From the NCBI GenBank assembly GCA_014379665.1, contig JACMLK010000076.1, positions 1-20,491 on the forward strand: DNA of 20,491 bases. The letters are read 5' to 3'. Both the position numbers and the translations under genes were made by a program. Of the stretch, positions 325-19,883 are shown piece by piece. The notes under the pieces were generated by a model that had not been told where the DNA came from, did not search any database, and was given only the letters and a program-made list of their open reading frames with translations. This DNA is from Saprospiraceae bacterium (GTDB taxonomy: Bacteria; Bacteroidota; Bacteroidia; Chitinophagales; Saprospiraceae). Position 1 is the first letter of the stretch. Every line of letters starts with the position of its first letter.

Positions 325-737
325 CGTGTATAGTATTTGTTAAGGTTAAGAATATTTGTATTTGATGCTATAACGAATTGATAGATAGTTACACTACATG
401 ATTAAGATAAAATCTAATTCACTCTGTAATTAGAAACTAACTCTTTTAACCATGAAGCAGTAATAGCTATTTTATTGCCATAGTAAACTTAGGCTTCAAG
501 GCTATTCCATGTAATTGTTGATGATAGATTCTCTCCCGCATTAGCAGCCAATAGCTACTTTTTTCCTAGATTATTCCTATAACAATTTTTCCCATCATAT
601 TGTTGCCCCCCATTGATTTGGAAAGCAAAGGTTACCAATTTAAAAAGTAAAAACCACCCTTACTCCAACAAAATGAAGACCACCCATTATTAAAATCTTT
701 AATATAATGTTGTCTTTTACTTAACACCAGATTTACA
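325..737. other. AT-rich intergenic region between divergent genes
   Basis: About 410 bases without a credible gene. A minus-strand TAACCTTTG at 634-626 resembles a -7 element but has no -33 partner and lies 300 bases from the nearest start. A short ACCACCC repeat occurs at 653 and 679. I see no RNA gene or strong hairpin. Confidence 0.5.
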
Positions 738-767
738 TTGGCTGGCCATCTTTGCGGGATACTTTCG
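738..767 (+). promoter_or_regulatory. Probable promoter of the LpxH-like gene
   Basis: TTG at 738-740, a 19-base spacer and TACTTTCG at 760-767 (one mismatch to TAnnTTTG) form a Bacteroidota-type promoter. The start would be near 774, only about 9 bases before the ATG at 783. This argues against using the in-frame TTG at 738 as the translation start, since that TTG is the -33 element. TTAACA at 721 and TTTACA at 732 are 11 bp apart, as in other promoters of this window, but the distance to the -7 element is 2 bases longer. Confidence 0.5.
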
Positions 768-782
768 GACATAAATACATAC

Positions 783-1649
783 ATGCCAAAACGCAAAGTA
801 GAAATAGTGGTCATCAGTGATACTCATTTGGGTACTTACGGATGTCACGCTGATCAGTTGCTGCAATATCTCAAAAGCATAGACCCCGATACCCTCGTAC
901 TCAACGGAGATATCATAGATATCTGGAACTTCAGCAAAAGCTATTTTCCAAAAAGTCATATTCATGTACTGCGCCAGATACTCAAGCTCACAGAAAAAGG
1001 AACTAAAACATACTACATCACGGGCAATCATGACGAAGCACTTCGTATGTACTCGGGTACAGCGATTGGTCATTTTCTCATAGATGATAAACTGATACTG
1101 CATATTGATGGCAAAAAGGTATGGATTTTTCATGGGGACATATTTGACGCTACCACTAAAGGATGGGCAAGAATTATGGCCAGACTGGGGGGTAAGGGTT
1201 ATGATCTCCTGATCCTGACCAACAGGCTAATCAATGAACTATTGTCTTACTTAGGTTATGAAAAAATCAGCTTTTCAAAAAAAATAAAATCAGGGGTAAA
1301 AAAAGCGGTAAAATGGATTGCAGATTTTGAAAATATTGCAGCCACATTGGCTATCGACCAGCACTTCGATACCGTCATATGCGGACACATCCATCACCCA
1401 CAATCCAGCATCATCACCAATCAAAAAGGCAGTGTGCACTATCTGAACAGCGGTGACTGGGTGGAAAGCTGCACCGCACTGGAGTATCATGAAGGTCAAT
1501 GGGTATTGTACCGTCATGCTGATGCTCCGTTGACAGATCCGGTACACAACGAGATCGATCCGACGGTGGAAGAAGCTGAACCCGAACTGTCTCTTTTTAA
1601 CATCAAAACCATCTATGAACATACTTTATTCAGTTCAGGCCACAGGTAA
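783..1649 (+). CDS. LpxH-like metallophosphoesterase (UDP-2,3-diacylglucosamine diphosphatase family)
   Basis: A 288-residue calcineurin-like metallophosphoesterase. The metal-binding motifs are in order: SDTHLG (D13, H15), NGDIID (D43), GNHDE (N82, H83), HGD (H117) and GHIHH (201-205). Order and spacing fit the YbbF/LpxH branch, which cleaves UDP-2,3-diacylglucosamine to lipid X in lipid A synthesis at the inner membrane. The protein is longer than the roughly 240-residue enterobacterial LpxH, because of a Lys-rich insert around residues 155-185. I chose the ATG at 783 because the longer frame from TTG 738 runs through a promoter-like sequence. The 3' end overlaps the next gene by 35 bases, so the two are almost certainly co-transcribed and may be translationally coupled. 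The fold is clear; the substrate is inferred from family and could be another phosphoester or pyrophosphate. Confidence 0.8.
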   Translation: MPKRKVEIVVISDTHLGTYGCHADQLLQYLKSIDPDTLVLNGDIIDIWNFSKSYFPKSHIHVLRQILKLTEKGTKTYYITGNHDEALRMYSGTAIGHFLIDDKLILHIDGKKVWIFHGDIFDATTKGWARIMARLGGKGYDLLILTNRLINELLSYLGYEKISFSKKIKSGVKKAVKWIADFENIAATLAIDQHFDTVICGHIHHPQSSIITNQKGSVHYLNSGDWVESCTALEYHEGQWVLYRHADAPLTDPVHNEIDPTVEEAEPELSLFNIKTIYEHTLFSSGHR

Positions 1650-2598
1650 CGGACATATCAGCCGGGCACATCAATTGTATCCTCATCTTTGCGCATTGGG
1701 AAATGTGGATATCATGCTCAGTGGCTCAAATGCTACCCTACAAATGGATATACCTGTCAAATACAGGAGTAGAGGATTGAGTCTTTTTTATTCCAGATGC
1801 GGCGGACTGGACTTTTTCAAAACACTGAAGGGATTTAATTATCCGGGTATTATACGGGAAGCTAAAGACTTGCCCGTTGAAAAATATGATCTCATCATCA
1901 ATGATTTTGATCACATCACTGCCCGCGCCTGCAGGTTTAAAAAAGTACCTTCCATACAGTTTGGACATCAGGCCAGTTTTATGTCCAAAGCTACGCCGCG
2001 GCCAGATAAAAAGAGTTTTTTTGGCGAACTGGTACTTAAAAAATATGCTACTGCAAGTCAATATGTGGGATTACATTTTGATAGGTACGATGATTTCATT
2101 TTTCCACCGGTGATCAAGGAGGTATTTATTCAATCCAGACCTATAGATCAGGGACACATCACGGTGTACACTCCGGCTTATGATGAAGATTGTCTTAAAG
2201 AGTTGTTTACTTCTTTGGATCACGTTGAGTTTCACTGGTTTTTACCTCACGTTACTTATCCGTATAAAGAAGGCAATATTCATTACTTTCCTGTAGATCA
2301 TACCTATTTTAATGACAGTCTTATCCATTGTCACGGACTGATTACAGGCGGAGGATTTGAAACACCTTCAGAAGCACTTTTCCTTGGCAAAAAACTGCTG
2401 ACCATACCTATAGATGGTCAATATGAACAACAGTGTAATGCGGCTGCACTAGAAAAAATGGGTGTATCAAGACTTTCGTTTTTGAATCAGGGTAGCAAAA
2501 CATTTTTGATTGATTGGATACAGAAGGAAAATTCTACTCATGCAGTTCATGCCAATAATATTCCTGAGACTTTAAGTTACCTTCTTAGTCTGTCATAG
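1615..2598 (+). CDS. MurG-like GT-B glycosyltransferase
   Basis: A 327-residue protein starting at an ATG inside the 3' end of the metallophosphoesterase gene. The N-terminal ATGNGHISRA (residues 9-18) corresponds to the GxGGH-type loop of MurG/GT28-like enzymes. The C-terminal ITGGGFETPSEAL (243-255), followed by GKKLLTIPIDGQYEQ, is the nucleotide-sugar binding region of the same superfamily. There is no signal peptide or obvious membrane helix, so it probably acts at the cytoplasmic face of the inner membrane. Pairing with an LpxH-like phosphatase suggests a role in a glycolipid or envelope step, but donor and acceptor cannot be read from the sequence. The stop at 2598 faces a convergent gene 31 bases away. 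Confidence 0.8.
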   Translation: MNILYSVQATGNGHISRAHQLYPHLCALGNVDIMLSGSNATLQMDIPVKYRSRGLSLFYSRCGGLDFFKTLKGFNYPGIIREAKDLPVEKYDLIINDFDHITARACRFKKVPSIQFGHQASFMSKATPRPDKKSFFGELVLKKYATASQYVGLHFDRYDDFIFPPVIKEVFIQSRPIDQGHITVYTPAYDEDCLKELFTSLDHVEFHWFLPHVTYPYKEGNIHYFPVDHTYFNDSLIHCHGLITGGGFETPSEALFLGKKLLTIPIDGQYEQQCNAAALEKMGVSRLSFLNQGSKTFLIDWIQKENSTHAVHANNIPETLSYLLSLS

Positions 2599-2629: not shown

Positions 2630-3151
2630 TTAAAACTTATATCCTACTCCGGCCATCAATCTTAGCTGAGCGTTGACCCTGTCAGTGTAGTCGGACTCAA
2701 TTGCCTTATCAATCACTAACCCGGTGCCTAAATCTATGATCCAATGATCATTTATTCCAAATTGGTAGCCAATCCTGATAATTCCACCCATGCTTGAAAT
2801 TCCATATTTTAACACATTACCCGCATCATCAAGTTTTACATCATCATAATCATAATTGTAGGATATCCCGGGTGACAGATAAAAACCGGTAAGGTTTGTC
2901 TTGTTGGAGAAATATTTTTTGAAGTCGATGGAGGCATTGATCCAATTGTTTTCGTTAAAAAAAACCAGGTGTCCCCGGTGAAAATTTAGAACGATAGAAG
3001 TATTATCTGACATACGGTATTCCAGGTGTACCGAAGGTATGATGGGCAAATTAAGCACATTGGTTTTTATAATAAACCTTTGTTGTTTCTCTTGTGCTGA
3101 AATCATCACAGACGTCAATCCCAGCACTATTAAAATAAGTTTCTTTAACAT
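2630..3151 (-). CDS. Small outer-membrane beta-barrel protein
   Basis: A 173-residue protein with a clear signal peptide (MLKKLILIVLGLTSVMISAQ). The rest is alternating hydrophobic and polar strands rich in Tyr, Gly and Asn, ending in GVGYKF, a C-terminal aromatic strand typical of outer-membrane barrels. The start FIIKTNVLNLPIIPSVHLEY resembles DUF3575-like barrels common in Bacteroidota. The length suits an eight-stranded barrel. Specific function is unknown. It stands alone, convergent with the glycosyltransferase gene and divergent from the EEP gene. I found no TAnnTTTG element close upstream. Confidence 0.7.
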   Translation of the reverse strand: MLKKLILIVLGLTSVMISAQEKQQRFIIKTNVLNLPIIPSVHLEYRMSDNTSIVLNFHRGHLVFFNENNWINASIDFKKYFSNKTNLTGFYLSPGISYNYDYDDVKLDDAGNVLKYGISSMGGIIRIGYQFGINDHWIIDLGTGLVIDKAIESDYTDRVNAQLRLMAGVGYKF

Positions 3152-3431: not shown

Positions 3432-3487
3432 TTAATTATTCATTAATAACTAATATACAATAAGTTAACATTAAAAAATAACCTTTG
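3432..3487 (+). promoter_or_regulatory. EEP gene promoter with 11-bp phased TTAA repeats (Pho-box-like)
   Basis: Hexamers TTAATT (3432), TTAATA (3443), TATACA (3454) and TTAACA (3465) begin exactly 11 bp apart. Nine bases after the last one lies AACCTTTG (3480-3487), one mismatch to TAnnTTTG, followed by TG. The TTAACA-N9-(T/A)ACCTTTGTG layout is the same as in front of the TonB receptor. Transcription would start near 3494, which excludes the TTG at 3485 as translation start and supports the ATG at 3521. Confidence 0.5.
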
Positions 3488-3520
3488 TGCATAATTATTC
3501 ACCAACTTAAAAATATTAAG

Positions 3521-4489
3521 ATGCACTTTTTGCGATTTATTTTTATCATCCTTTTCTGTATCCCTTTTACTCTGGTTCAATCAGAAAAATTGCCAAAATA
3601 TGAAGATACAGACATTGTCCGTTGGTATAAAGAAGCCCAACATCAGGAGAAAATACAATCAGGTTTGCTGAATGTCATGAGCTACAATACCTGGGGTCTT
3701 CCAATAGAATTAAAAGGACATGATCACTTCAGGAGATTTAAATCTATGGCAGACAGCCTGTTGCTGACAAATTCGGATATCATTGCCCTACAGGAAACAT
3801 TTCATCCTGTACTCAGAGACCATTTAATGAAAATGCTATCAAAAGATTACTACACTTTTAGTGATTACAGGTGCAACAGGTCAATTCTGCCATATGTAGA
3901 GATGGATTGTTATGGTGGATTGATGACACTATCGTCTTTACCTGTTACGTCAGAAATTTTCTATCCATATCCGGTAAACGAAACCTCATCCATCATAGAA
4001 AAAACAGGGGGTAAAGGTTTTTTAATCACTCAGATATCACATGGCCGAAAATGTATCAATATTATCAATACCCACTTGTACGCCGGGGATTACCCCAAGG
4101 CTGAAAACATCAGAATGGAGCAGATTAAATATATGCATAAGGTCATTCAGCATATTCCTGATTTTTACCGCAATGAAACGATACTGCTAGGGGATTTTAA
4201 TGTACATCATCCTGATGTAGAATGTTCTGTGGTGTATGATTATATAGTGTCGGATATGGGATTTGATGATAGTAAAAAATCAATAAATGACAATGATTTT
4301 ACCTGCGATCATAAGACAAACAAATATGTCGCAGCAAGTGAGAAAAGGACAAAACTCGATTATGTTTTTTTAAAATCCGACCTTAACGATGGAAAGATAG
4401 ACATCCTGAATCAATTCAGAGCAATGGATAATAAAAAGCTTCCGATGTCTGATCACTTTGGTTGGCAGGTACAGATCAGATTGCTTTAA
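3521..4489 (+). CDS. Exported endonuclease/exonuclease/phosphatase (EEP) fold hydrolase
   Basis: From the ATG at 3521 the protein has 322 residues, with a signal peptide (MHFLRFIFIILFCIPFTLVQ). EEP/DNase I-like motifs follow in order: SYNTWG (N56), ALQETF (E92, metal ligand), NTHL, LLGDFNVH (D225, N227), LDYVF and a final SDH (D311, H312). This Mg-dependent fold cleaves phosphodiester or phosphate bonds. Exported relatives include sphingomyelinase C-like phosphodiesterases, secreted nucleases and inositol phosphatases. The motif order with GLMTLSSLPV is closer to the sphingomyelinase-like branch than to exonuclease III, but the substrate is uncertain. A longer frame from TTG 3485 would start inside the promoter and is rejected. 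The gene ends 21 bases from the convergent glycosyltransferase gene. Its promoter suggests control shared with the TonB receptor and the OlsF operon. Confidence 0.8.
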   Translation: MHFLRFIFIILFCIPFTLVQSEKLPKYEDTDIVRWYKEAQHQEKIQSGLLNVMSYNTWGLPIELKGHDHFRRFKSMADSLLLTNSDIIALQETFHPVLRDHLMKMLSKDYYTFSDYRCNRSILPYVEMDCYGGLMTLSSLPVTSEIFYPYPVNETSSIIEKTGGKGFLITQISHGRKCINIINTHLYAGDYPKAENIRMEQIKYMHKVIQHIPDFYRNETILLGDFNVHHPDVECSVVYDYIVSDMGFDDSKKSINDNDFTCDHKTNKYVAASEKRTKLDYVFLKSDLNDGKIDILNQFRAMDNKKLPMSDHFGWQVQIRLL

Positions 4490-4510
4490 GATCCTGTCTA
4501 TCTAATCAGC

Positions 4511-5650
4511 TCAAAGGTTATTAAATACATCATGATACCCATTTACCATTCTGTCTGTTAAAAAATGCTCCAAGGTGAATTTCCTGAATTTTTCATTGTT
4601 TGTTGATGACAATCGGGAGTGCCGTATGATTTGTTCTCTCCAGGCATGGGTATCTCCTGCTTTGACCAAATAACCGTTTTTACCATTATAAATGGCATCA
4701 GTGATGCCTTCGATATCGGCGGCAAGTACAGTCTTACCTTTGACTGACGCTTCAAGCGACACCAGTCCAAATCCTTCCATATCACCACTAACCATAATAT
4801 TTGGCATGATCATTAAAGTTGCTTTGCTGATGAGATAATCTCTGAGTTCATTATCCACTTTTCCAACACGGATGATTCTGTCCGGACGCTTGGTAGACTC
4901 TTTATACAAATCATAAACATCATTTGGTTTCCCAAAAAAAAGATCTACCAGATTTTTGACCTTATCAGGTAAAATTTGCAAAAGATATGGTTCTTTATGG
5001 TGGCTGATTCCGATGTGTACAAATTTATAAGAAGGATGAAGTAATGGAATCACCTCCCTGGCAAACCAGCTAAAACCTTTTCGGCGGACTGGTCTTCCGA
5101 TAGCGAGCAGTATCTTATCATGATCAATATCAATGCCTAACTCTTCCGAAATATACCTGTCATACTTGTCACTGAGCGCAATGAAGGGTCCTTTATTTTC
5201 CACGCCGTTATTTACTACGATAAGTTTTTCGTCCGGAAAGTTTCTTTTTTTACATTCCTGTTTAGTAGCTTCACTGACACAGATAAATGCATCAAATGTC
5301 ATCAATTTTGGAAGTATCTTTTTTTGATATACTGACAAAGGGAATACCACTTCCAATCCATGAAGTGTCACGACAACTTTTCGGCCCTGAGCATTTACCC
5401 GTAGCATGCTGAAAAACGCACCCATCAATCCGTCATTAAGATGTATAATTTTAATATCCGGGTGTTGACGGAGCATCTTTTTTACCCTGAATTTTAATTT
5501 CAGAAAGAAAAGCGCAATGTGTTCTTTACCGGTATAAATGATGTCGTAGCTTCCATAGATATTTTTATACCCATTGATCAACTGAAAGCTTTGATTCTCC
5601 ATGCCGCCAACAGCAGGCGGATACTTGTGTGTAATAAATAATATAGCCAA
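4511..5650 (-). CDS. GT4-family glycosyltransferase, last gene of the OlsF operon
   Basis: A 379-residue GT-B retaining glycosyltransferase. The N-terminus ILFITHKYPPAVGGMENQS is the acceptor-side glycine-rich loop of GT4 enzymes. AIGRPVRRKGF opens the second Rossmann domain, and EGFGLVSLE (E292 and E300) is the E-x7-E motif that binds the nucleotide-sugar. It has no signal peptide and should work at the inner face of the cytoplasmic membrane. The start is a TTG at 5650: no ATG occurs in frame between the upstream stop and this point, and the residues after it align with the usual family N-terminus. The gap to the upstream glycosyltransferase gene is 75 bases. The sugar donor and lipid or glycan acceptor are unknown; operon context suggests a membrane glycolipid. 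Confidence 0.85.
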   Translation of the reverse strand: MAILFITHKYPPAVGGMENQSFQLINGYKNIYGSYDIIYTGKEHIALFFLKLKFRVKKMLRQHPDIKIIHLNDGLMGAFFSMLRVNAQGRKVVVTLHGLEVVFPLSVYQKKILPKLMTFDAFICVSEATKQECKKRNFPDEKLIVVNNGVENKGPFIALSDKYDRYISEELGIDIDHDKILLAIGRPVRRKGFSWFAREVIPLLHPSYKFVHIGISHHKEPYLLQILPDKVKNLVDLFFGKPNDVYDLYKESTKRPDRIIRVGKVDNELRDYLISKATLMIMPNIMVSGDMEGFGLVSLEASVKGKTVLAADIEGITDAIYNGKNGYLVKAGDTHAWREQIIRHSRLSSTNNEKFRKFTLEHFLTDRMVNGYHDVFNNL

Positions 5651-5725
5651 GAAAATGATGTATGGTGTTAAAAAAGAATTCCTTTGGTCCTGTTATATGA
5701 TTCTTCTTTTAATTGCCTGTTATGA

Positions 5726-6934
5726 TCAGCCAAAGGCAACCTGATATGCGTGACTTAATTTGAATTGCGGTTCAACGGATTGTCTCTCTGCCAATGTCTT
5801 CAGATCGTTGAAATAGGTATCGGTCAGGGTCTGCCAGCGGAGTCCTTCTGCAAATGCCAATCCTTCTCTGATAAATCTAAGCCTAACATCCTCTAGTTCC
5901 ATTATATCTTTTATCCGGTCAATATATTCATGGCTTGATTCCGGTGTACAAAGAAAACCATTCTCGCCGTCTTTTATAAAACCCGCAGAACCTCCGCCGT
6001 TGGCAATGACACAGGGAAGCCCCGAGGCCATAGCTTCTGCAACTACATTGCCATAGGTCTCTGTCACGGATGTAAAGAGAAAAACATCACAGGATGCATA
6101 GACTTTCGCCAGTTCATCATGAGGTAGCTGCCCCGGGAAAAAAGCTCCTGGCATCAGGGTCAACATTTCTTCTTTGGCAACTCCGTCACCTGCAATAATA
6201 AAGTTGCAGGGAATATCCAACGACATGGCTTCATTATAAATTTTCACCAATGTCTTAAGATTTTTCTCCCATACCAGACGACTTACGAAAAGCACATTTT
6301 TCTTATTGTTGCCTGTATAATTATGAATACTTTCAACATTTCTACGACTGGGGTTGAAAATTTCGGTATTGAGACCTCTGGACCAGATTTTCATGTGTTG
6401 AGTAGACATGCCGTACGATCTCAATTCTCTTACCATATGGAGTGTTGGGATATAAATAATATCACAGTTGTCATAAAATTTCTTTTGGTCTTTTGCTACC
6501 CATTTCGTTACAGACCGAATAATTGCAGGAAATCTTTCCAGATAGTATTTGATATAGGATATGAAATGTGTATGATAAATAGTCAACATCGGTAAACCTT
6601 TGGATTTACCGTACTTCATTCCAAATTTCCCCAACATGGAAGGGGTAGAAATATGCAAAACATGAGGGTTGAAATCATTCAATACTTTTTTTAATCTCCT
6701 TTGATGAAAAAAAGGCATGGCCATGCTGTAATCCTTGTTGAATGGTATCTGTATAGTTGGAATGGCCACATATCGATATTTAAAATCGGCCGGGGGAGCA
6801 ATGCCGCAGATAAAAAGAAATTCAAACTCATCCTCCGGAATTCTTTTGATGATCTGGAAAATGGTGCGTGAAGCACCATCAAAATCTTCTTTGAGGATAT
6901 CTGCAAAAAAAACAATTTTTATTTTGCTATTCAT
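5726..6934 (-). CDS. GT4-family glycosyltransferase (SqdX/MgtA-like)
   Basis: A 402-residue GT-B enzyme. FFADILKEDFDGASRTIFQI replaces the usual glycine-rich loop, HTHF lies in the acceptor domain, FVSRLVWEKNLKTLV opens the donor domain, and ETYGNVVAE (E292 to E300) is the E-x7-E motif. The stretch SVTETYGNVVAEAMASGLP is typical of the branch with sulfoquinovosyl-diacylglycerol synthase SqdX/SQD2 and mannosyltransferase MgtA, which transfer sugars to lipid acceptors. No signal peptide or transmembrane helix is seen, so it is probably a peripheral membrane protein. It lies between the OlsF-type acyltransferase (58-base gap) and another GT4 enzyme, which supports glycolipid synthesis. The donor sugar is not predictable here. 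Confidence 0.85.
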   Translation of the reverse strand: MNSKIKIVFFADILKEDFDGASRTIFQIIKRIPEDEFEFLFICGIAPPADFKYRYVAIPTIQIPFNKDYSMAMPFFHQRRLKKVLNDFNPHVLHISTPSMLGKFGMKYGKSKGLPMLTIYHTHFISYIKYYLERFPAIIRSVTKWVAKDQKKFYDNCDIIYIPTLHMVRELRSYGMSTQHMKIWSRGLNTEIFNPSRRNVESIHNYTGNNKKNVLFVSRLVWEKNLKTLVKIYNEAMSLDIPCNFIIAGDGVAKEEMLTLMPGAFFPGQLPHDELAKVYASCDVFLFTSVTETYGNVVAEAMASGLPCVIANGGGSAGFIKDGENGFLCTPESSHEYIDRIKDIMELEDVRLRFIREGLAFAEGLRWQTLTDTYFNDLKTLAERQSVEPQFKLSHAYQVAFG

Positions 6935-6992
6935 TATTTTTAATATTTCAGATTGGTATTCAAATGGTCCTGCATATATGTGACAGGATATG

Positions 6993-8741
6993 TTACCCTA
7001 GTTTTTCTAAATTAATTTTACTGATCTCAATGTATATCAGTCCATCTATGGCATCATTAAACGCTGTATCTACATTGAATGCCAGAAGTTTTGCATTCTG
7101 AAGAAGATACTTTTTGATCAGCACAGGTATTTTGAGACCCTGAGGTTCTAATTCTTCAATTAGTCTATCTACGGACCTGATACTTTCAAATTGGGATGAT
7201 CCGATCAAATCAGCATCTTTTTTTGTTAGCATACTTCTAAATGGTTTTTTGGCTGCCACATACAATGCGAGATCACTGTCAAAATGATGTTTTGAAAAAT
7301 ATTCGACCATCATTGATCTGCTGTAATAAGAATAACTGTTGCTGATACTGGCGGCCCCTATCAGATACTTATATTCAGGAAAGGATGTAGCAATCTTTTC
7401 TATCCCCTTCCAAAGCAGGAATAATGGCATAGGTCTTTGCTGATATGGTTTTGCTACAAATGCACGCCCCATTTCTATTGATTCGTTCATTACATCATGC
7501 ATCGGGCCGTAGAGATAAAATAATTCACTCATATAAAAGCCGCTCATGCCATACATTTTTTTTATTTCTTTCCCAAGTCCCAATCTATAAGCACCCGCCA
7601 GCTGACATGCTGATTTGTCCCATAATATCAGGTGATGGTAGTAGGCATCATATTTGTCTACATCGGTTGCCTTACCTGTTCCTTCACCGGCATCCCTGAA
7701 AGTGATTTCACGCAATCTCCCCAATTCTGCCAGAATCATCGGATAATCATCCAGTTTGGTAAAATATAAGGCATAATGACCACTTTCGAACAGTATTTTT
7801 TGATCCTGTCTGAGCAATGAAAAATCCCGTTCTAAATGTTCTGGTGAAATCCTTGCTAATACCGGTTGGTGACCTTTTTTAAACTTACTGATATCAAGTT
7901 CAAAAAATTTACGCTTCCTGAATACATTTCCCAATATATAGGTCTTGTGCCGGATGTGATCAGATAATACATCAATATCCTTCATACTATCCTGTGTGGT
8001 GACAGATATAGGGTTCCCTATCCTGACCTTTATAGTTTTATCGTAGCTATTGAGCATTTCTGAGGGTAATTTTGCAGTCCTGAGGTAACCATTGACCCCT
8101 GCCATAATATAAAAAAGGTCACTGTTTCTTGCGTTAAAAAACATAGGGATGACCGGAACACCAGCTTTTTTAATCAGCTTAATCATACTCACATCCCACT
8201 TTTTGTCATCAATCCTACCACCAATCCCTTTCTGACGCACAGAAACTTCACCGGCCGGAAAAATACCTAAAGGAAAACCTGATTTCAGTTGATCCAGCGC
8301 AGTCCTGATTCCACCAAAACTGTGATATAATTCTTTGTTATGTTCAAATGGGTTTACCGGACAAACATATCTGTCCAAAGGTTGAACCAGTTTTAAAAGG
8401 TAATTAGCTATGATCTTGCTTTCAGGGTGATGAAGAAGCATTATTTTCAACATGATCAGTCCATCAATGCCACCGAGCGGGTGGTTGGATACTAAAATAA
8501 AAGGACCTGATGCCGGTAGTCTTTTAAGGTCATTTTCTGAAATTTCTATTCGAATAGATAATTTGTCCAGGATAGCATCAATAAAAGCCAATCCTTCAAG
8601 ATGACAATGCTGATCATAGAGTTGATTCAACGCATTGATACCAAGGATGTCCATCATTGTTTTAGTTACAGACGTCCCTAAAACACCATATCTCTGGAGC
8701 CGGAGGTTTCGGACTATATCAGTTTCAGTTACTATTGGCAT
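6993..8741 (-). CDS. olsF: Bifunctional O-/N-acyltransferase fusion, OlsF type (ornithine or glycine lipid synthesis)
   Basis: A 582-residue protein with two acyltransferase domains. Residues about 60-270 are a PlsC-like O-acyltransferase: NHPLGGIDG (H87, D93) is the H-x5-D catalytic variant, FPAGE (161-165) the glycerophosphate-acyltransferase-type motif, and VPVIPMFF (195-202) follows. Residues about 300-500 are a GNAT-fold N-acyltransferase of the OlsB/hemolysin-like type, with LREITFRDAGEGTG and ELFYLYGPMHDVMNESIEMGR split by short linkers. This order equals OlsF, in which the C-terminal domain makes the N-acyl amino acid and the N-terminal domain adds the second acyl chain. The products are phosphorus-free aminolipids: ornithine lipids in OlsF, glycine lipids by GlsB/GlsA in Bacteroides. 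Which amino acid is used cannot be told. It is first in an operon with two glycosyltransferases. The symbol states the family, not proven substrate. Confidence 0.8.
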   Translation of the reverse strand: MPIVTETDIVRNLRLQRYGVLGTSVTKTMMDILGINALNQLYDQHCHLEGLAFIDAILDKLSIRIEISENDLKRLPASGPFILVSNHPLGGIDGLIMLKIMLLHHPESKIIANYLLKLVQPLDRYVCPVNPFEHNKELYHSFGGIRTALDQLKSGFPLGIFPAGEVSVRQKGIGGRIDDKKWDVSMIKLIKKAGVPVIPMFFNARNSDLFYIMAGVNGYLRTAKLPSEMLNSYDKTIKVRIGNPISVTTQDSMKDIDVLSDHIRHKTYILGNVFRKRKFFELDISKFKKGHQPVLARISPEHLERDFSLLRQDQKILFESGHYALYFTKLDDYPMILAELGRLREITFRDAGEGTGKATDVDKYDAYYHHLILWDKSACQLAGAYRLGLGKEIKKMYGMSGFYMSELFYLYGPMHDVMNESIEMGRAFVAKPYQQRPMPLFLLWKGIEKIATSFPEYKYLIGAASISNSYSYYSRSMMVEYFSKHHFDSDLALYVAAKKPFRSMLTKKDADLIGSSQFESIRSVDRLIEELEPQGLKIPVLIKKYLLQNAKLLAFNVDTAFNDAIDGLIYIEISKINLEKLG

Positions 8742-8759
8742 TCGTTGGCAATTATATCA

Positions 8760-8804
8760 TAAAAGTACCATATGATTATTAAGCCAATGAGTTGTTAAAG
8801 TTAA
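8760..8804 (-). promoter_or_regulatory. OlsF operon promoter with 11-bp phased TTAA repeats (Pho-box-like)
   Basis: Read on the minus strand: TTAACT (8804-8799), a degenerate unit at 8793-8788, TTAATA (8782-8777), then 9 bases and TACTTTTA (8767-8760, one mismatch to TAnnTTTG) followed by TG. It aligns without gaps to the TonB receptor promoter, including an identical CATTGGCTTAA at 8789-8779. I count 33 identities in 48 positions. Transcription would start near 8753, giving a leader of about 12 bases. Confidence 0.55.
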
Positions 8805-8807
8805 CAA
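8792..8807. promoter_or_regulatory. 16-bp palindrome in the OlsF promoter region
   Basis: TTGTTAA-AG-TTAACAA, perfect 7-bp arms around a 2-bp centre. It overlaps the most upstream TTAACT unit of the OlsF promoter, so it may be an operator for a dimeric regulator or simply two opposed TTAACA half-sites. Confidence 0.4.
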
Positions 8808-8830
8808 TGGGTTATATTTTCAGAATCAAA

Positions 8831-8914
8831 TTAGCGAGTTAGCAGGTTAGCAAGTTAGCGAGTTAGCAGGTTAGCGAGTTAGTAAGTTAGTAAGTAAGTT
8901 AGTAAGTTAGCAGG
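8831..8914. repeat. 8-bp tandem repeat array (TTAGYRRG units)
   Basis: Ten units of 8 bp plus one 4-bp partial unit (TAAG at 8895-8898). The variants TTAGCGAG, TTAGCAGG, TTAGCAAG and TTAGTAAG are arranged in part as higher-order repeats. The array sits about 90 bp upstream of the OlsF start and just upstream of its promoter. Octamer arrays change length by slippage without frame constraints in non-coding DNA, so a change here could alter promoter geometry. No CRISPR-like spacing. Confidence 0.85.
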
Positions 8915-8995
8915 ATAGTATTTTAACATTTTAACAAATAAACAAACACATCAATTGGGTATACTGATTCAGGATATGCTCCAAATGCCGACTAT

Positions 8996-9027
8996 AAAAA
9001 AAAAGAGCCGATGTTGCCATCAGCTCT
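8996..9027 (-). terminator. Rho-independent terminator after the lipoprotein gene
   Basis: On the minus strand a 10-bp stem (AGAGCTGATG with CATCGGCTCT, one T-G pair) closes a GCAA tetraloop and is followed by a run of nine U residues. It starts 56 bases after the lipoprotein stop codon and separates this transcription unit from the OlsF operon. Confidence 0.9.
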
Positions 9028-9082
9028 CTTATCTAATAATACAAAACAATTATAAGTGTCCTGAAATAAGCACTTATATTTC

Positions 9083-10402
9083 TTAATAATCTGTATTTTG
9101 AGGATCCCAGTTGGCCCACCCGTCTGTCCAATCTGAAGTGCTGAAAGCTCCAACTGCAGTATTGGCTTCAAATCCTGCAGGAAGTGTCACTCCACCTGTC
9201 AATAAGGTGGAACCTGTGATTGGCAGCAAACCAGGTTTTCCGGTAGCTGCATTGTAAGTAGCGTTTAATCCCAACGTAGAGGGGTCAATACCAAATATAT
9301 TTTTTCTTGATGCTTCTTTTAATTTTACTTCATCACCGGCAACTATACCTTTGGTCATACCGGCCAGAATCAATCCTCTGAAATCTGATTTGTCATTGAC
9401 AAAATTTGCTTGTGTAGCAGCATCACCAAGTTCGAATCCACCCTTAGGGAAGGCACCGACCACTAATGAGTTGAAGACGGAAAGGGCAGAATTTCTTCTC
9501 AATCTGAATCCTGACCTGAATTTAGCATCCGGTGTTCCTTCTGCGATGATGATCGAAATATTGGCAAACTTACAGCTTGTCTGAGGCAAAGCATCTGACC
9601 CTGAAGCGTCATTGTCCGATTCAAATCCGTTTGAGTCAGAACAAGTACATTGATCCGCTACTTTGGAGTCTCTGTATGCCAGTCCGTATTGTACATTTCC
9701 GGAATAACCCCAGTCTGTATCAAAGTCATCATCCAGGTTTTTATAAGATATCAGATATTTGGCGTTAACATTTCCACCAAACCATTCGATTCCATCATCG
9801 CCATTTTGAGTGACCTGTACATACTCAATCGTAGTACCTTTGCCTACCCCACCTAGTGTTAGTCCATTTACTTCTTTATCCGTTTCGAAAGCGATTCCTC
9901 CGAATTCTATTCTTACGTATTTGATGATACCGGAGTTGTCATTTTCTTCACTTCCACCAAATGTCGAAATATTTTCTCCTTCGATTGTGGCAGGAGTTTT
10001 GTTGACTTTCCCTTTGCCCAACACGATTATACCGCCCCAGTCACCATAATTTCTTGACCCTTTTGCCTGGTTTGAAGTAAATACGATAGGTTTAAGTTTG
10101 GTACCTTCAGCTATAATTTTAGCCCCTGGTTTGATGATCAGGGTAGCTTTGGTCGATTTATCACCTTTGATGATTGTACCCGGCTCTATGGTCAAAGTGG
10201 CACCTGCTTCTACATACACAAATCCTTCCAGGAGGTACTTGTTTTTAGCTGCCCAGGTCGTGTTGGTGGTGATAGATCCTTTTATGGTCAGGTTTTCACC
10301 TGGCACTATTGGATCATCGTCATCATCATCCCGTCCGCAAGATGAAAAAGTAAGACCTGCTGCTACTATCAGAAATGCAAATAATTTTAAACTGAACTTC
10401 AT
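9083..10402 (-). CDS. Surface-exposed beta-helix lipoprotein, partner of the TonB receptor
   Basis: A 439-residue lipoprotein. The signal peptide ends in TFSSC, so lipidation is at C22. The residues after it, GRDDDDDDP, are an acidic stretch like the lipoprotein export signal that sends Bacteroidota lipoproteins to the cell surface. A beta-helix-like body follows, with repeated hydrophobic strands (TLTIEPGTIIKG, TLIIKPGAKIIAEG, DWGGIIVLGKG) and Asp/Asn-rich turns. Two Cys close together (CTC, about residue 250) may form a disulfide with a third Cys nearby. The C-terminus WANWDPQNTDY is typical of a Bacteroidota family often misnamed multidrug transporter, usually found beside TonB receptors; no transporter features are present. 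It lies 87 bases after the receptor gene and was probably co-transcribed with it. Likely role: ligand capture at the cell surface for the receptor; ligand unknown. Confidence 0.75.
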   Translation of the reverse strand: MKFSLKLFAFLIVAAGLTFSSCGRDDDDDDPIVPGENLTIKGSITTNTTWAAKNKYLLEGFVYVEAGATLTIEPGTIIKGDKSTKATLIIKPGAKIIAEGTKLKPIVFTSNQAKGSRNYGDWGGIIVLGKGKVNKTPATIEGENISTFGGSEENDNSGIIKYVRIEFGGIAFETDKEVNGLTLGGVGKGTTIEYVQVTQNGDDGIEWFGGNVNAKYLISYKNLDDDFDTDWGYSGNVQYGLAYRDSKVADQCTCSDSNGFESDNDASGSDALPQTSCKFANISIIIAEGTPDAKFRSGFRLRRNSALSVFNSLVVGAFPKGGFELGDAATQANFVNDKSDFRGLILAGMTKGIVAGDEVKLKEASRKNIFGIDPSTLGLNATYNAATGKPGLLPITGSTLLTGGVTLPAGFEANTAVGAFSTSDWTDGWANWDPQNTDY

Positions 10403-10489
10403 GTTGAAAAAATTTTAAATGGTTTATTAATCAATATTTTAAGTTACTTTTTATTACTTACAAATCTGTGGCGGCAACAATTAACCAGG

Positions 10490-13255
10490 TTAGAATTTAT
10501 AATTCACCCCCATATAGAAGTTTGACCCTCTTCTGAATTCCTGAAATACGCCGTCAGAATCTGTAATTTTATTATCTCTATTGGTGTCCTGTACCAATTT
10601 AAATGGCTGATTGAATATATCCTGTGCTCCTGCTTTGAATTCAAGACGGCCGAATGTTTTGGAAATATTAAAATCCACTACATTTCTGGGCATTTCAAAT
10701 ACGTTGGAACTCAATACATTATCTCCGATCACATATATTCTCTGTCCTACTACATTGTACAGCACATTTGCCTGTAAACCTGCCTCAGGTAAGGTATAAA
10801 ACAATCCCGCATTGACTAGATAAGGAGATTGTCCCTGAAGAAATCTGCTGTAATCGCTCAGACCACTAACCACCACATTGCTGCTGATCAGAGATGCATT
10901 AAACAGGACCATAAAATTTTCCGTAAGATTTTTTCTCACTTCGATTTCTACTCCTGTGGACTGTGCAGACTCAGAATTGGCTACTGTGAAAGCGACAGTA
11001 CTACCATTGTAGAACACGGCTGCTTCTATAGGATTATGAAACTTTTTGTAAAATGCCCCAATCGTGATCAATTCTCCTTTGGAAGGATAGAAATCATATC
11101 TCAGGTCAAAATTGTGTATCGTAGCCACCTTGATATCTCTGTTACCTCTTCGGGACACATCAAAAATAAAGTCATAATATGTAAATGGAGCCAATTCTCT
11201 GAATTCCGGTCGGTTGACCGTAGTACCGTATGCCAATCTAACCAAATGTTTTTCATTCAGTTTGTACGTCGCATTAAGAGATGGCATCGGGCTGAATATA
11301 CCGTTGTTTACATCCACTTTTTGTCCGCCACCTCGTTCCCTGCTCTGAAGCATTTGTTGGTTGTATTCACCTCTCATACCAATAGTGGTATTAAATCTTG
11401 AAGTGAATGGAATATAAAAACTTATATAAGCGGCATTTAGCATATTCTGTGCCGTGTATTTATCATCAAAATTTGTACCTTCAGAGTAAAAAACTCTCGA
11501 TGACCTTAGATTGTCATTGGTGAAAAATTCCTCAGGATTCTGAGAAGTAATGTCAGCAGAAACCCTGTTGGGATTTACGATACCAAACCATCTTGCCTTG
11601 AAATATCTGTCCTTGTATTCGGAATACACTCCAAATTTCAGGGTCTTATTTTGCTCGGCATCGCTGTGTATAGTGCCTATGATTTTATCGAAAGTAGCCG
11701 TTCCGGTGATCACAAATTCATCCATGTTTGACCAGAATCTGGCAGCCTGCTGGAGGGTTGGTGACTCGAATTGCTGAAGATCTATTCTGTAGGCGTGATC
11801 AGAACCCAACTCTCTGGATGAAGTAAATCTTCTGAAATCCGGTTCCGACCTTTTGGTATATCCGAATCCTCCGATCCATTTTAGTCTGGTATGGTCATTC
11901 AATTCATGTGTGCCGTTAATCTGACTGGACAGGATGCTTTTCTGTTCATACCTGAAAGACTGATTGGAAATTTCCAGACCGTTTTCAAATAATTGTCCTG
12001 TTCTTAATACGGTCTCTTTGGTAGCCAGTTGGTTGAAAATATTTCTGAATTCGATCTTGTTTTTTGGATTAAGTATGAGTGCCCAATTGCTCATAGCTCC
12101 AAGTCTTACATTATTGGTATAATTATCATCATTAAATGTGCTTTGTACAGATTCATCATACAGGAATCTGTTTTGCACCATTTGCTGAAAAGAATTTGTA
12201 TTGGAGTAGTTGACATAAGAGATATTGGTCAATTCCTTATCGCCGATAAAAAATCTTTTAGTGTAATTGATATTGGCTCTGACATCCGGCATGATCGTTT
12301 TGCTTTGCACGTCATAGTAAGGATTGAGATTTTTAAAATTTTCAATCATGGCTTCCGTACCTGCATTCACAATTACACTTTTTGTGGATGGAAAACCGGA
12401 AGGCAGGTCTCTGAATTTACTTCCAAATCCAAGCGCATCAGACGTACTTCCTTTATAATCAGTTACGACATTGCCTGTAGCATTTCCTCTGTAACCCAGG
12501 GTAACTCCAAAAGACAAATGATCACCATCAGGTACTGTTTTGGTATATATTTTGATTGCACCACCCGCTATATCACCCGGTAAATCTGCTGAAGGTGATT
12601 TAAAGACCATCATCCTGTCTATAGCAGAACTTGGGATCAGGTCGAAGGAAAATGATTTGACATCCACTTCTGTAGAAGGTGTGATGACATCATTTAACAA
12701 CACAGTATTATATCTTTCATTTAGCCCTCTTATGACAATAAATCTATCATCAAATATCGATACTCCGGGTACTCTTCTTACCACCTGAGAAGCATCTCTG
12801 TCCTGTGTTTTGGTTATTTGTTGTGAAGAAACACCGACGGCAATGTTGGCTAATTGTTTTATTTCGGATACGACAGATACTTCCGTGTCAGTTTTCCTTG
12901 CTGCCTTTACTTCTACAGCATCCAGTAGCAAACTGCTTTCATCCAGTCCCGTTTCAATGATGGTTGATTTGCCTGATTCGACACGTACCTTGTCAATTTC
13001 AAGATTAGCATATCCAATACTCGAGATAATAATGAGGTACATTCCCGCATTCAGATTTTGAATTTCAAAATTGCCGTCGAAGTCAGTAGTGGTTCCAGTC
13101 TCAGTACCTGCTACCAAAATAGTGGCACCAATCATGGGTTCGTTGGATTTGTTGTCTTTTATATGCCCCTTGAGGCTTCCGGTCTGAGCTGACATCATCT
13201 GACAGGCCAAGACAAAGATGAAAAGACTACATCTACATTTCAGGTTCATAATCAT
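10490..13255 (-). CDS. TonB-dependent outer-membrane receptor with CarboxypepD_reg-like domain
   Basis: A 921-residue receptor. A signal peptide (about residues 1-24, ending MSAQ) precedes a carboxypeptidase-regulatory-like domain (25-110: GSLKGHIKDNKSNEPMIGAT, FDGNFEI). The plug follows at about 118-240, with VRRVPGVSIFDDRFIVIRG, NTVLLNDV and DLPGDIAGGAIKI. The rest is a beta-barrel ending in FYMGVNYKF, with the terminal aromatic residue required for barrel insertion. I saw no clear TonB box. There are two candidate ATGs (13255 and 13249); both precede the signal peptide. It is followed by a surface lipoprotein gene, as in other receptor/lipoprotein uptake pairs. It is not SusC-like in size or partner, so a glycan role is not implied. 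The promoter suggests tight control, and phosphate or organophosphate uptake is a hypothesis only. Confidence 0.9.
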   Translation of the reverse strand: MIMNLKCRCSLFIFVLACQMMSAQTGSLKGHIKDNKSNEPMIGATILVAGTETGTTTDFDGNFEIQNLNAGMYLIIISSIGYANLEIDKVRVESGKSTIIETGLDESSLLLDAVEVKAARKTDTEVSVVSEIKQLANIAVGVSSQQITKTQDRDASQVVRRVPGVSIFDDRFIVIRGLNERYNTVLLNDVITPSTEVDVKSFSFDLIPSSAIDRMMVFKSPSADLPGDIAGGAIKIYTKTVPDGDHLSFGVTLGYRGNATGNVVTDYKGSTSDALGFGSKFRDLPSGFPSTKSVIVNAGTEAMIENFKNLNPYYDVQSKTIMPDVRANINYTKRFFIGDKELTNISYVNYSNTNSFQQMVQNRFLYDESVQSTFNDDNYTNNVRLGAMSNWALILNPKNKIEFRNIFNQLATKETVLRTGQLFENGLEISNQSFRYEQKSILSSQINGTHELNDHTRLKWIGGFGYTKRSEPDFRRFTSSRELGSDHAYRIDLQQFESPTLQQAARFWSNMDEFVITGTATFDKIIGTIHSDAEQNKTLKFGVYSEYKDRYFKARWFGIVNPNRVSADITSQNPEEFFTNDNLRSSRVFYSEGTNFDDKYTAQNMLNAAYISFYIPFTSRFNTTIGMRGEYNQQMLQSRERGGGQKVDVNNGIFSPMPSLNATYKLNEKHLVRLAYGTTVNRPEFRELAPFTYYDFIFDVSRRGNRDIKVATIHNFDLRYDFYPSKGELITIGAFYKKFHNPIEAAVFYNGSTVAFTVANSESAQSTGVEIEVRKNLTENFMVLFNASLISSNVVVSGLSDYSRFLQGQSPYLVNAGLFYTLPEAGLQANVLYNVVGQRIYVIGDNVLSSNVFEMPRNVVDFNISKTFGRLEFKAGAQDIFNQPFKLVQDTNRDNKITDSDGVFQEFRRGSNFYMGVNYKF

Positions 13256-13285
13256 TTGTTTTTATTTTGTATAAATTAGATGCCA

Positions 13286-13330
13286 CAAAGGTAGAATGTC
13301 AATGTTAAGCCAATGTTAAGTCTGAGTTAA
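13286..13330 (-). promoter_or_regulatory. TonB receptor promoter with three 11-bp direct repeats (Pho-box-like)
   Basis: On the minus strand: TTAACT (13330-13325), TTAACA (13319-13314) and TTAACA (13308-13303), each exactly 11 bp apart. The last two units share TTAACATTG. Nine bases later comes TACCTTTG (13293-13286), a perfect TAnnTTTG. A -33 TTG at 13313-13311 with 17-base spacing lies inside the middle unit. Start near 13279, leader about 24 bases. Repeats overlapping the -33 region suggest an activator. Confidence 0.7.
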
Positions 13331-14253: not shown

Positions 14254-17200
14254 ATGACAATTACTATTTCCACTCTAAGAACCTATTTTAGTAAATTTTA
14301 TATAGCACTATTGATCACCTCCTTATATGGTGTTTCTTTGAATTCCCAAACCACACTGGAAGCTGGGGATATAGCTATAATTGGCTATCATACCCAAGGA
14401 TCACCGGACAACTTTGCAATACTCATATTAAAAGATTTGGCAGAGAATACTATCTTTTATATAAATGATAATGAAGTTGCTACTCCAGGAAGTACTTCTT
14501 TTACAGATTTAAACGAAAGAGAAGCATCTTTTACAGTAAAGTCCGGTCAGACAGTATTAGCTGGTACTGTAATTGTCTTGCCTTGGGGTGCTGCTGCCGT
14601 TTCCACCATGACCTATGACTGGAGCACGACCAGTAGTGCAGGTCTTGGCAATAACAATGAAGAGTTATATGTATATACTGCACCATCTATAACATCCGAT
14701 ACACCCACAGCATTTATTTATTATGCAAAAATAGGAACCAGTCCAAGTGCTATTCCGAATACTTTAACACTTGGTACTACAGCGATTGCACCCGATGGTT
14801 CGTCTCTAAGATATTCAACCACAAATGCTACCTATGCCGGATGCAAAAGTGTTTTACTAAGTGCCACCGGAAATACAGCAGCTAATTGGAATAGTACGGG
14901 AGCAACCAATATTATTGCCACTGATTGGACCTTTAGTGTGAATCCATCTTGTGCGACCATTTCATGGACCGGAACTTTGGCAGCAATGTCCTCCATATAT
15001 GGGACATTTTCTAATGAAACTTCATTTTTTGTTTCAGGATCCGGAATGAATGAAGGAATCCTGGTGACGCCACCTACTGATTTTGAAGTCTCTCTGACGT
15101 CTGGTGGAGCATTTACTCCTACTGTAACGGTAGGTACAGCGGGTACGATACCATCCACAGAAGTATTTATCAGATTAAAATCTGACGCAACAGTCGCAGA
15201 TTCCCCTTACAGTGGTAATATAGTTTTATCAAGTTCAGGTGCATCTTCTATAAATATAAATATTCCCGCGAGTAATGTCAGCCAGTTAGGAATAACTTCA
15301 ACAGGTGCTATGGCATCAGATAAAGAATATGATGGTAATAATATGGCTTCAATAGCCGGCGCTACTCCAGTCGGACTGGTTAATGGAGATGTTATCTCGA
15401 TCACAGGGGGTGGTACATACGCTTCTTCAAATGTCGGAAATGATATAAATATTACACCTTTACTAGTATTAGTTGGTTCCAATTCCACTAGTTATACATT
15501 ATCACAACCCAATGGATTGTCTGCTGATATAAACCCAAAAGTGCTGACAATAACAGGATTAACTGCAAACAATAAACTTTATGATGGCACGACGACAGCA
15601 TTTTTATCAGGCACACCTATGCTGGTAGGTGTCATTTCCGGCGACACACCAAATGTATCAATTTCAGGAAGTTATGTGGCGAATTTTATTGATCCAAACG
15701 TAGGTATTGCTATTCCTGTTATTGTTTCCGGTTACACACTCTCAGGATCAGCTTCAGGCAATTATTCTTTAACTCAGCCTTCAGGCTTATCGGCTGATAT
15801 TACATCTTTACCATCACCAGTGATAACAAGTGTTTTAACAGCGATTGCAACTTACGGAGAAGTTGCTCCAATGTACACAATAACCGCAACAGAGTCTCCG
15901 ACCAGTTATAATGCTTCAGGGTTACCGGATGGATTAAGTGTAAATACATCTAATGGCGAAATAACCGGTACACCTACCGGCCTTCCAGGAGTATTTAATG
16001 TATTGATTTCTGCAACTAATTCAGGTGGAACCGGCAATGCTACCCTGGTGTATACGATAAACCCCAAAACATTGACTGTAAATAATGCCTCAGCCGATAA
16101 TAAAATATATGACAGAACAAATACAGCCACTATTTCTGGTTCAACACTATCAGGCATAGTAGGAAGTGATCTGGTTACTATAAATAATAGCGCTACCTTT
16201 GCTTCTGTCAATATTGGAACATCTATTATGGTTAATTCCACTCAAACATTAAGTGGTATTGATGCTCCAAAATATTCACTGACATTACCTTCCGGGCTGA
16301 CAGCTGATATTACTCCTAAAATTTTGACGATTCAAGGGGCAGTTGCACAAAACAAAATTTATGATGGAAATACAACTGCAACAATAACCGGAACACTTAC
16401 CGGTGTAATTTCACCAGATATAGTTACATTAACATTATCAGGAAATTTTGCTACATCTGCGGTTGGAAATGGAATTGTTGTAACATCAACATCTATCATT
16501 GAAGGTGTAGATGTTGGAAATTATATGTTAACTCAACCTACGGGTTTGACAGCCAATATTACAGTTGCAATAATTGCAAACTGGACTTATGAACCTTTAC
16601 AGGGAAATTCTGCTAACCCTACACCAAATGTTGGAACTGGTACGTCCGCATTAGTAGGTGAAATGGTTGGATTTGGTGGAACGGGAACAGGGATGAATAC
16701 ATTAACCGGATGTGGTTCACAAACATCAGGAACAAGCGCCTGGGCCATTTCGAGTGCTAAACCAGGTACTGTAAATGAGTCTAGTGGAGCACAGTTTAAC
16801 ACAAGTACTCTTGGATATGAAAATATAATGGTTTCCTGGGAGCAACGCTGGTCAAATACAGCTACGAATACGGTCAGATTACAATATACGACTGACGGTA
16901 CTAATTGGATTAATTTCAATATGACTTCCGGTAATACTTCCTTTTGTTTAGGTTCTTTAAACGATGGGCGGTTTGAAACCAATACTTCTGGTGATCAATA
17001 CCGCAGAACTTCAGTTGATTTGTCTTCTATTTCAAATGTAAATCATAAAGTTAATTTTGGAATCAGGGTTGTGGCGGCACATTACCAGACAACCACTGAA
17101 TTCAGACAAACTGCAAACCCCAATACTCAGGCAACAGGTGGAACATGGAGATTTGATAATGTAAAGTTTGAAGGCATTCCAACAACACCTCCTCCCTCAC

Positions 17201-19421: not shown

Positions 19422-19883
19422 ATGGACTTAATAAAAATGGTTCCGCTTAGTGATATAGTTGTCTTGCGGTTGGAAATTGCAAGGTTGAGTGAGTTAGCTA
19501 CGGAACTTGCTCAGAAACTTAACATGGCTTCATTGAAACAAACGAGTCAAAATGTTTTTGATAAGGGAATACTGGTATACGGGAATAAAATTAAGAAGTA
19601 TATAAAGTATGATGAGTTGATTATGATCAAAGCAGAAAGTAATTACTCGATCATTTTTTATAAAAATGGTCATTCCGCACTAACATCCAAAACATTAAAA
19701 TATTGGGAAGAAAGATGTGAAGTCGATTTTCTTAGGCGAACACACAAATCATATATTATTAATTTAAAAATGATCAAATCATATGAAATTCTAACTAAAA
19801 ATATTTTACTTGAGGATGGACATATAGCCCTTTATTCAAGATCTAATAAAAAAATAATATCTGAGCTATGCCAACCTCAATAA
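19422..19883 (+). CDS. LytTR-type DNA-binding regulator without receiver domain
   Basis: A 153-residue protein. Residues 1-45 form a helical, Leu-rich segment (VPLSDIVVLRLEIARLSELA) that could dimerise. Residues about 55-150 are a LytTR domain: YDELIMIKAESNYSIIFYKN, then FLRRTHKSYIINLKMIKSYE and LYSRSNKKIISEL. LytTR proteins bind direct repeats, often of about 9-12 bp spacing, and in Bacteroidota they often follow a response-regulator receiver or membrane sensor; here neither is present. It begins 26 bases after the stop of the large secreted protein with no terminator between, so the two are probably co-transcribed. Input signal and targets are unknown. Downstream (19884-20180) there is no gene. 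Confidence 0.8.
   Translation: MDLIKMVPLSDIVVLRLEIARLSELATELAQKLNMASLKQTSQNVFDKGILVYGNKIKKYIKYDELIMIKAESNYSIIFYKNGHSALTSKTLKYWEERCEVDFLRRTHKSYIINLKMIKSYEILTKNILLEDGHIALYSRSNKKIISELCQPQ

Follow-up and report, generated by a model that had tools for sequence, protein, structure and literature searches.

The window analysed here, a stretch of 20,491 nucleotides (20.5 kb) that makes up an entire contig of a Saprospiraceae assembly in 502 contigs, listed as 65% complete, probably holds a modular phosphate-starvation (Pho) island, in which a PhoB box would drive a TonB-dependent outer-membrane receptor (TBDR) with its lipoprotein, a PlcP-like metallophosphoesterase and an EEP-fold phosphodiesterase, and in which two glycosyltransferases, A and B, would turn diacylglycerol into glycolipids. 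A preliminary description of positions 3432–13330 had proposed phosphate limitation and membrane remodelling, a reading that is largely right; its placing of the OlsF-like acyltransferase in the regulated core is wrong. Gene families were assigned with Pfam and NCBIfam models on the window ORFs and promoters were scored with the matrix (PWM) described below, giving, from left to right:

721–754, plus strand: metallophosphoesterase promoter, TTAACA-N5-TTTACA-N13-TTTG with one mismatch (PWM 23.7; reached by 0/164 controls and 0/500 shuffles)
783–1649, plus strand: PlcP-like calcineurin-type metallophosphoesterase (Pfam Metallophos), outside 3432–13330
1615–2598, plus strand: MJ1255/VC2487-type glycosyltransferase (TIGR00661, 133.9 bits, cut-off 195.9), overlapping the metallophosphoesterase gene
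2630–3151, minus strand: DUF3575 protein (family model), without a box (PWM −1.5)
3432–3487, plus strand: EEP promoter, hexamers in 11-bp steps at 3432, 3443, 3454 (weak, 4 of 6) and 3465, TTTG at 3484
3521–4489, plus strand: EEP-fold sphingomyelinase-like phosphodiesterase (TIGR03395, about 50 bits, cut-off 248)
4511–5650, minus strand: glycosyltransferase A, GT4-type (family models)
5726–6934, minus strand: glycosyltransferase B, GT4-type (NF053787, 107.7 of 480 bits; NF049988, 85.2 of 400 bits)
6993–8741, minus strand: OlsF-like acyltransferase-GNAT fusion (NF052615, 390 bits, cut-off 620), first gene of the 8741–4511 run
8760–8793, minus strand: best site upstream of OlsF, a single half-site TTAATA-N13-TTTA (PWM 1.4; reached by 58/164 controls and 316/500 shuffles)
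9001–9030, minus strand: terminator-like hairpin (13-pair stem and T run) between the lipoprotein gene and OlsF
9083–10402, minus strand: predicted beta-helix lipoprotein (lipobox-like SSC, by eye)
10490–13255, minus strand: TBDR (family models)
13286–13319, minus strand: TBDR-lipoprotein promoter, TTAACATTGGCTTAACA-N13-TTTG (PWM 29.7; reached by 0/164 controls and 0/500 shuffles)
14254–19395, plus strand: YDG/choice-of-anchor I protein of 1713 aa (PF22494, 438.6 bits), without a box of its own (PWM 0.9)

A tRNA-Arg gene separates the TBDR-lipoprotein unit from the choice-of-anchor I gene. The families named beforehand for the EEP enzyme, the acyltransferase-GNAT fusion, the two glycosyltransferases and the TBDR were recovered by the models, whereas the EEP signal peptide and the lipobox were read by eye. 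As had been stated, no pst or phoBR gene is seen among the window ORFs. Terminator-like sites across the hairpin region show no excess (8, against 7.5 in shuffles). Positions 8827–8907, also between the lipoprotein gene and OlsF, hold about nine tandem 8-bp units of the CAAGTTAG type that merge into a 12-bp repeat.

In the mechanism that we propose, phosphate shortage would lead phosphorylated PhoB, whose gene would lie outside the window, to bind TTHACA-like repeats spaced by 11 bp. The repeats would take the place of a −35 element, with 13 bp between them and a −7 TTTG, and their occupation would switch transcription on. The first module, the TBDR with the beta-helix lipoprotein, would then act as an outer-membrane phosphorus-acquisition system; in the second, the PlcP-like enzyme, coupled to a glycosyltransferase, would strip the head groups from phospholipids to leave diacylglycerol, which glycosyltransferases A and B would convert to glycolipids; and in the third, the sphingomyelinase-like phosphodiesterase would free phosphate-bearing head groups outside the membrane. 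OlsF, a candidate source of phosphorus-free aminolipids, heads the glycosyltransferase run, and its control by phosphate is no part of this proposal. The catalytic and transport roles given here are assigned by homology, and the substrates are those that we infer.

Upstream of the TBDR gene lies a PhoP/PhoB-type box, with hexamer repeats 11 bp apart and then 13 bp to the −7 TTTG, the 11-bp repeat being detected also by TRF; to the eye, the upstream regions of TBDR homologues have in common TTAAYA hexamers repeated every 11 bp, the series mostly stopping 13 bp short of TTTG. The −7 element, together with sequence hits, points to Bacteroidota. A 34-bp PWM was trained on 10 receptor-first homologues, 31–74% identical to the window TBDR, with the window excluded; it was seeded with a consensus drawn up by visual inspection of upstream regions, those of the window and of pst among them; only the metallophosphoesterase set was wholly unseen. 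The training loci were picked by lipoprotein position from 27 loci (14 lipoprotein-first, 10 receptor-first and 3 without a lipoprotein match), and the lipoprotein-first loci were left out because there the region upstream of the receptor is mostly coding; their 14 stretches, most scoring below 13 and the best 16.9, were scanned over unequal lengths and so do not enter the counts. The 164 intergenic controls have a 95th percentile of 5.5 and a maximum of 10.6, with equal 260-bp windows used for the pst/porin and metallophosphoesterase leaders; an alternative set of 103 looser controls has a 95th percentile of 8.1, and all counts quoted use the intergenic set. Scored by leave-one-out, 9 of the 10 training promoters exceed 5.5, the tenth (L012) falling below it at 4.4.

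On this measure the repeat spacing and the fixed distance to the core promoter are found at the TBDR and PlcP-like promoters and, more weakly, at that of the EEP gene, whose scored core (3454–3487) reaches 12.3, the weakest of the three boxes, a value attained by 0/164 controls and 2/500 shuffles. The preliminary description had given one promoter layout to three units, which stands for the TBDR and EEP units but not for OlsF, at background with 1.4; the third site of the pattern precedes the metallophosphoesterase, outside 3432–13330. Allowing up to two mismatches, TTAAYA-N5-TTAAYA-N13-TTTG occurs at three window sites (721+, 3454+ and 13286−) where 0.41 are expected, and 2 of 100 shuffles reach three; at three mismatches the five window sites are not unusual against 3.23 expected. 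The strict pattern has four sites in the assembly itself (two in the window, the other two inside ORFs) and nine sites across 20 genomes, against two for the reversed pattern, 15 of the 20 genomes having none; only three of the seven strict sites outside the window lie upstream of a gene, one of these phosphate-related. In one relative a strict site precedes a membrane protein gene followed by a Na/Pi cotransporter gene. A short half-site pair was rejected as the box pattern, with no genome-wide enrichment over its reversed form in two genomes (8 against 8, and 17 against 20). Another strict box, at L190 1501–1534 (G054), stands upstream of a DUF1015 gene, and the Na/Pi transporter gene of the assembly itself begins at a contig start, which puts its promoter out of view.

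Among relatives, box-like elements precede the pst operons: 12 of 14 pst/porin leaders, two of the porins being confirmed as Porin_O_P, exceed the control 95th percentile (p = 8e-8), four of them scoring above every control and two of the 14 falling below the percentile. The metallophosphoesterase homologues, of which 29 loci were scored out of 49 places outside the genome itself, give 21 upstream regions above the percentile (p = 1e-13), 11 above every control and 8 below the percentile. Of the EEP/GT promoters, 5 of 8 exceed the percentile, in a set that includes the EEP gene of G049 (1.0) and in which some promoters share one divergent region. Scores are low at several lipoprotein-first leaders (G074, 1.5; G012, 1.8; G119, 0.9), and in G092 the TBDR leader scores −0.6 and the lipoprotein leader 12.8, so that the box is weak or absent at two of the three PhoB-linked leaders (that of G074 and the TBDR leader of G092).

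These PhoB-linked loci provide the second line of evidence. G047, a sister species of the same genus, has the genes for TBDR, lipoprotein, response regulator and histidine kinase in that order, and the regulator scores 299 on the NCBI Bacteroides PhoB model (cut-off 270) and 147 on the RprY model, with 219, below the cut-off of 296, on the general PhoB model TIGR02154. Only G047, G074 and G092 among the 120 family genomes pass the Bacteroides PhoB cut-off, and all three have the regulator beside the TBDR-lipoprotein pair; ORFs of 588 and 567 aa occupy the kinase position in G074 and G092. In G012, G119, G078 and G016 a lower-scoring PhoB-family regulator is encoded divergently to the pair, and in G112 and G072 one comes after the metallophosphoesterase gene; the pair of G112 is divergent from the PlcP-like gene and the regulator. 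One of the 150 PhoB-family regulators listed is found no more than 8 kb away at six of 81 TBDR places, where 0.31 are expected from those 150 and an assumed genome size of 5.3 Mb, and most regulators near a TBDR score below the Bacteroides PhoB cut-off. Searches for homologues of the G047 regulator at E 1e-50 in 13 other genomes, and for pstC in the two genomes of the genus, gave no match, and the 65%-complete assembly itself has no PhoB above the curated cut-off. A search for phoB or pst near the island finds neither among the window ORFs; in the sister species a phoB adjoins the pair. With phoB so placed in three relatives, and with the TBDR, EEP and PlcP-like genes carrying boxes that resemble those upstream of pst operons, the phosphate control first proposed is supported.

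The TBDR has homologues at E ≤ 1e-60 in 79 of the 120 family genomes (its own included), many only about 30% identical, and a lipoprotein homologue shares the same small locus in 24 of 27 family loci. SusC-type identity is not borne out by TIGR04056 (60 bits, cut-off 368). The lipoprotein matched no Pfam or NCBIfam family; AlphaFold2 predicts a beta-helix for it (mean pLDDT 78), and Foldseek pairs it, at low TM-scores, with beta-helix enzymes and tailspikes.

The metallophosphoesterase, whose ATG start at 783 was read from the translation (searches used 792–1649), is about 40% identical to proteobacterial homologues and would be a PlcP-like phospholipase C making diacylglycerol. By family models it is a calcineurin-type enzyme distinct from LpxH and a candidate PlcP. 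Its genomic association is with replacement-lipid synthesis: taking DUF3419 to be the BtaA betaine-lipid family, it is present in 24 of the 29 genomes with a strong DUF3419 match at E ≤ 1e-95 (p = 5e-8) and in 26 of all 41 DUF3419 genomes (p = 1e-4). The two genes lie within 2 kb of one another in seven genomes, DUF3419 being Pfam-checked in four and a small methyltransferase alongside being checked in three. Neither genome of the genus gave a DUF3419 match, and in the window a glycosyltransferase follows the metallophosphoesterase. Among 29 metallophosphoesterase loci, four have a homologue of this MJ1255-type enzyme no further than 1.5 kb away, and in G002, G083 and G042 a homologue lies close to EEP/GT genes. 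The membrane-remodelling content first claimed is present, as a PlcP-like enzyme and glycosyltransferases distantly like lipid ones, but the strongest lipid gene, the PlcP-like one, lies outside 3432–13330.

The nearest family of the EEP protein is that of the bacterial sphingomyelinases; in alignment with solved sphingomyelinases it keeps the catalytic E, H and D/N motifs, and it is probably secreted, to judge by a signal peptide seen by eye. Glycosyltransferase B is distantly like glycosyl-PG and monoglucosyl-diacylglycerol synthases, below their cut-offs. The OlsF-like protein matches NF052615 over nearly its whole length and lies below the equivalog line because of its score. As a Pho target, which the preliminary description had made it, OlsF was rejected: to the background score of its window promoter is added that of its homologues, of which 9 promoters were scored out of 23 located and one exceeds the control 95th percentile (p = 0.12). 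Among ten OlsF loci examined (L034–L037, L181–L185 and L068), OlsF is near the TBDR only in G040, at about 4 kb, and it is not part of the conserved set. Three further OlsF-like matches (L055, L056 and L057) carry one in-frame stop apiece.

Three other explanations bear on this reading. In one, the metallophosphoesterase is the ordinary lipid A enzyme LpxH. For this, the nine best solved relatives are UDP-2,3-diacylglucosamine diphosphatases, and 18 of the 20 plasmid matches listed are annotated as such, the other two being unannotated. We nevertheless hold this improbable, for the protein stays at 47.6 and 55.6 bits on LpxH models whose cut-offs are 190 and 134, the presence of the gene in 47 of 120 family genomes and its absence from the sister genome (at E 1e-25) are unlike a core step, and it co-occurs with DUF3419 and carries the box. 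To a box belonging to another OmpR-family regulator, with the genes answering some other envelope or nutrient signal, we give slightly less credence still. In its favour, a spacing of about 11 bp between direct repeats characterizes the OmpR/PhoB family as a whole, and a regulator passing the Bacteroides PhoB cut-off is missing from 117 of the 120 genomes; against this, similar boxes precede pst/porin operons and the Na/Pi cotransporter unit in relatives, and in G047 the response regulator next to the pair fits the Bacteroides PhoB model far better than that of RprY.

The third explanation, unlikely but to be taken more seriously than these, would confine Pho control to the TBDR-lipoprotein pair and the PlcP-like gene, the EEP, glycosyltransferase and OlsF genes being a constitutive envelope-lipid or polysaccharide cluster that lies between them by chance. 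It would fit the weakness of the EEP box, the background score of OlsF, the pair standing without EEP or OlsF in the sister species, and the EEP gene without a glycosyltransferase neighbour in G049 and on a short G050 contig. Yet EEP and both glycosyltransferases are linked in three of the five relatives with EEP (G083, G042 and G002), in G083 together with the TBDR-lipoprotein pair and all within 12 kb, and in G002 the intergenic region from which the EEP and GT genes diverge scores 13.2 on one side and 16.8 on the other.

We keep to a Pho island, one that is an assembly of modules, because G047, listed as 100% complete, has the TBDR-lipoprotein pair, but searches for the metallophosphoesterase, for EEP and for OlsF found nothing there at the thresholds applied. 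The same genome speaks against the single fixed unit first envisaged; linkage in relatives, which had been proposed as a check, is seen in G083, and G105, G016 and G112 each link the PlcP-like gene to the pair, but the linkage is not fixed.

The set shares features with several known systems and departs from each: (i) PusCD is a Pho-regulated SusCD-like pair of Flavobacterium, an outer-membrane TonB receptor and lipoprotein tied to phosphate starvation as here, whereas the window receptor is not SusC by the curated model and its lipoprotein is a predicted beta-helix, not SusD. (ii) The PhoP/PhoB boxes of Bacillus (TTHACA repeats) and cyanobacteria are likewise hexamer direct repeats in 11-bp steps; the 13 bp to a TTTG −7 element sets the present box apart. 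(iii) PlcP-based lipid remodelling under PhoB is known from Sinorhizobium and marine bacteria. Here too a PlcP-like enzyme stands under a Pho-type box, beside a glycosyltransferase and, in relatives, near DUF3419; the box and −7 element are different, and a sphingomyelinase-like enzyme and a receptor with a beta-helix lipoprotein are added. (iv) The OlsF and GlsA/GlsB aminolipid synthases have the acyltransferase-GNAT fusion in common with the window protein, which is below the equivalog cut-off, has no Pho box and, among the loci examined, accompanies the set nowhere but in the window and G040. (v) Bacterial neutral sphingomyelinases share fold family and catalytic motifs with the EEP protein, which falls well short of their curated model.

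Shortage of phosphate holds back growth in many waters and soils, and a readable Pho box would allow the phosphate regulon of this group to be predicted from sequence; the island also points to an outer-membrane uptake pair and to lipid exchange of the PlcP type, in a phylum noted more for its use of polysaccharides. Quite possibly, although we advance this tentatively, the receptor and beta-helix lipoprotein represent a widespread and undescribed class of PhoB-controlled outer-membrane phosphorus acquisition in Bacteroidota, encoded in some genomes with phoB or PlcP, in which import and the stripping of the cell's own membrane would come under one box as exchangeable modules.

Some neighbouring genes may be recorded here. 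Aspartyl-protease-like genes adjoin the pair in G100 and G023 (L067 9981–10898, PWM 7.5; L069 3766–4695), and relatives of the choice-of-anchor I protein adjoin it in G083 and G016, one of them with a phytase-like domain. In the window a LytTR-domain protein (19422–19883), with no receiver domain detected by the family models, directly follows the choice-of-anchor I protein. On a Sphingomonas plasmid (L179 2826–7828), a TBDR, a PlcP-like gene and a glycosyltransferase are consecutive, the receptor being only distantly similar to that of the window.
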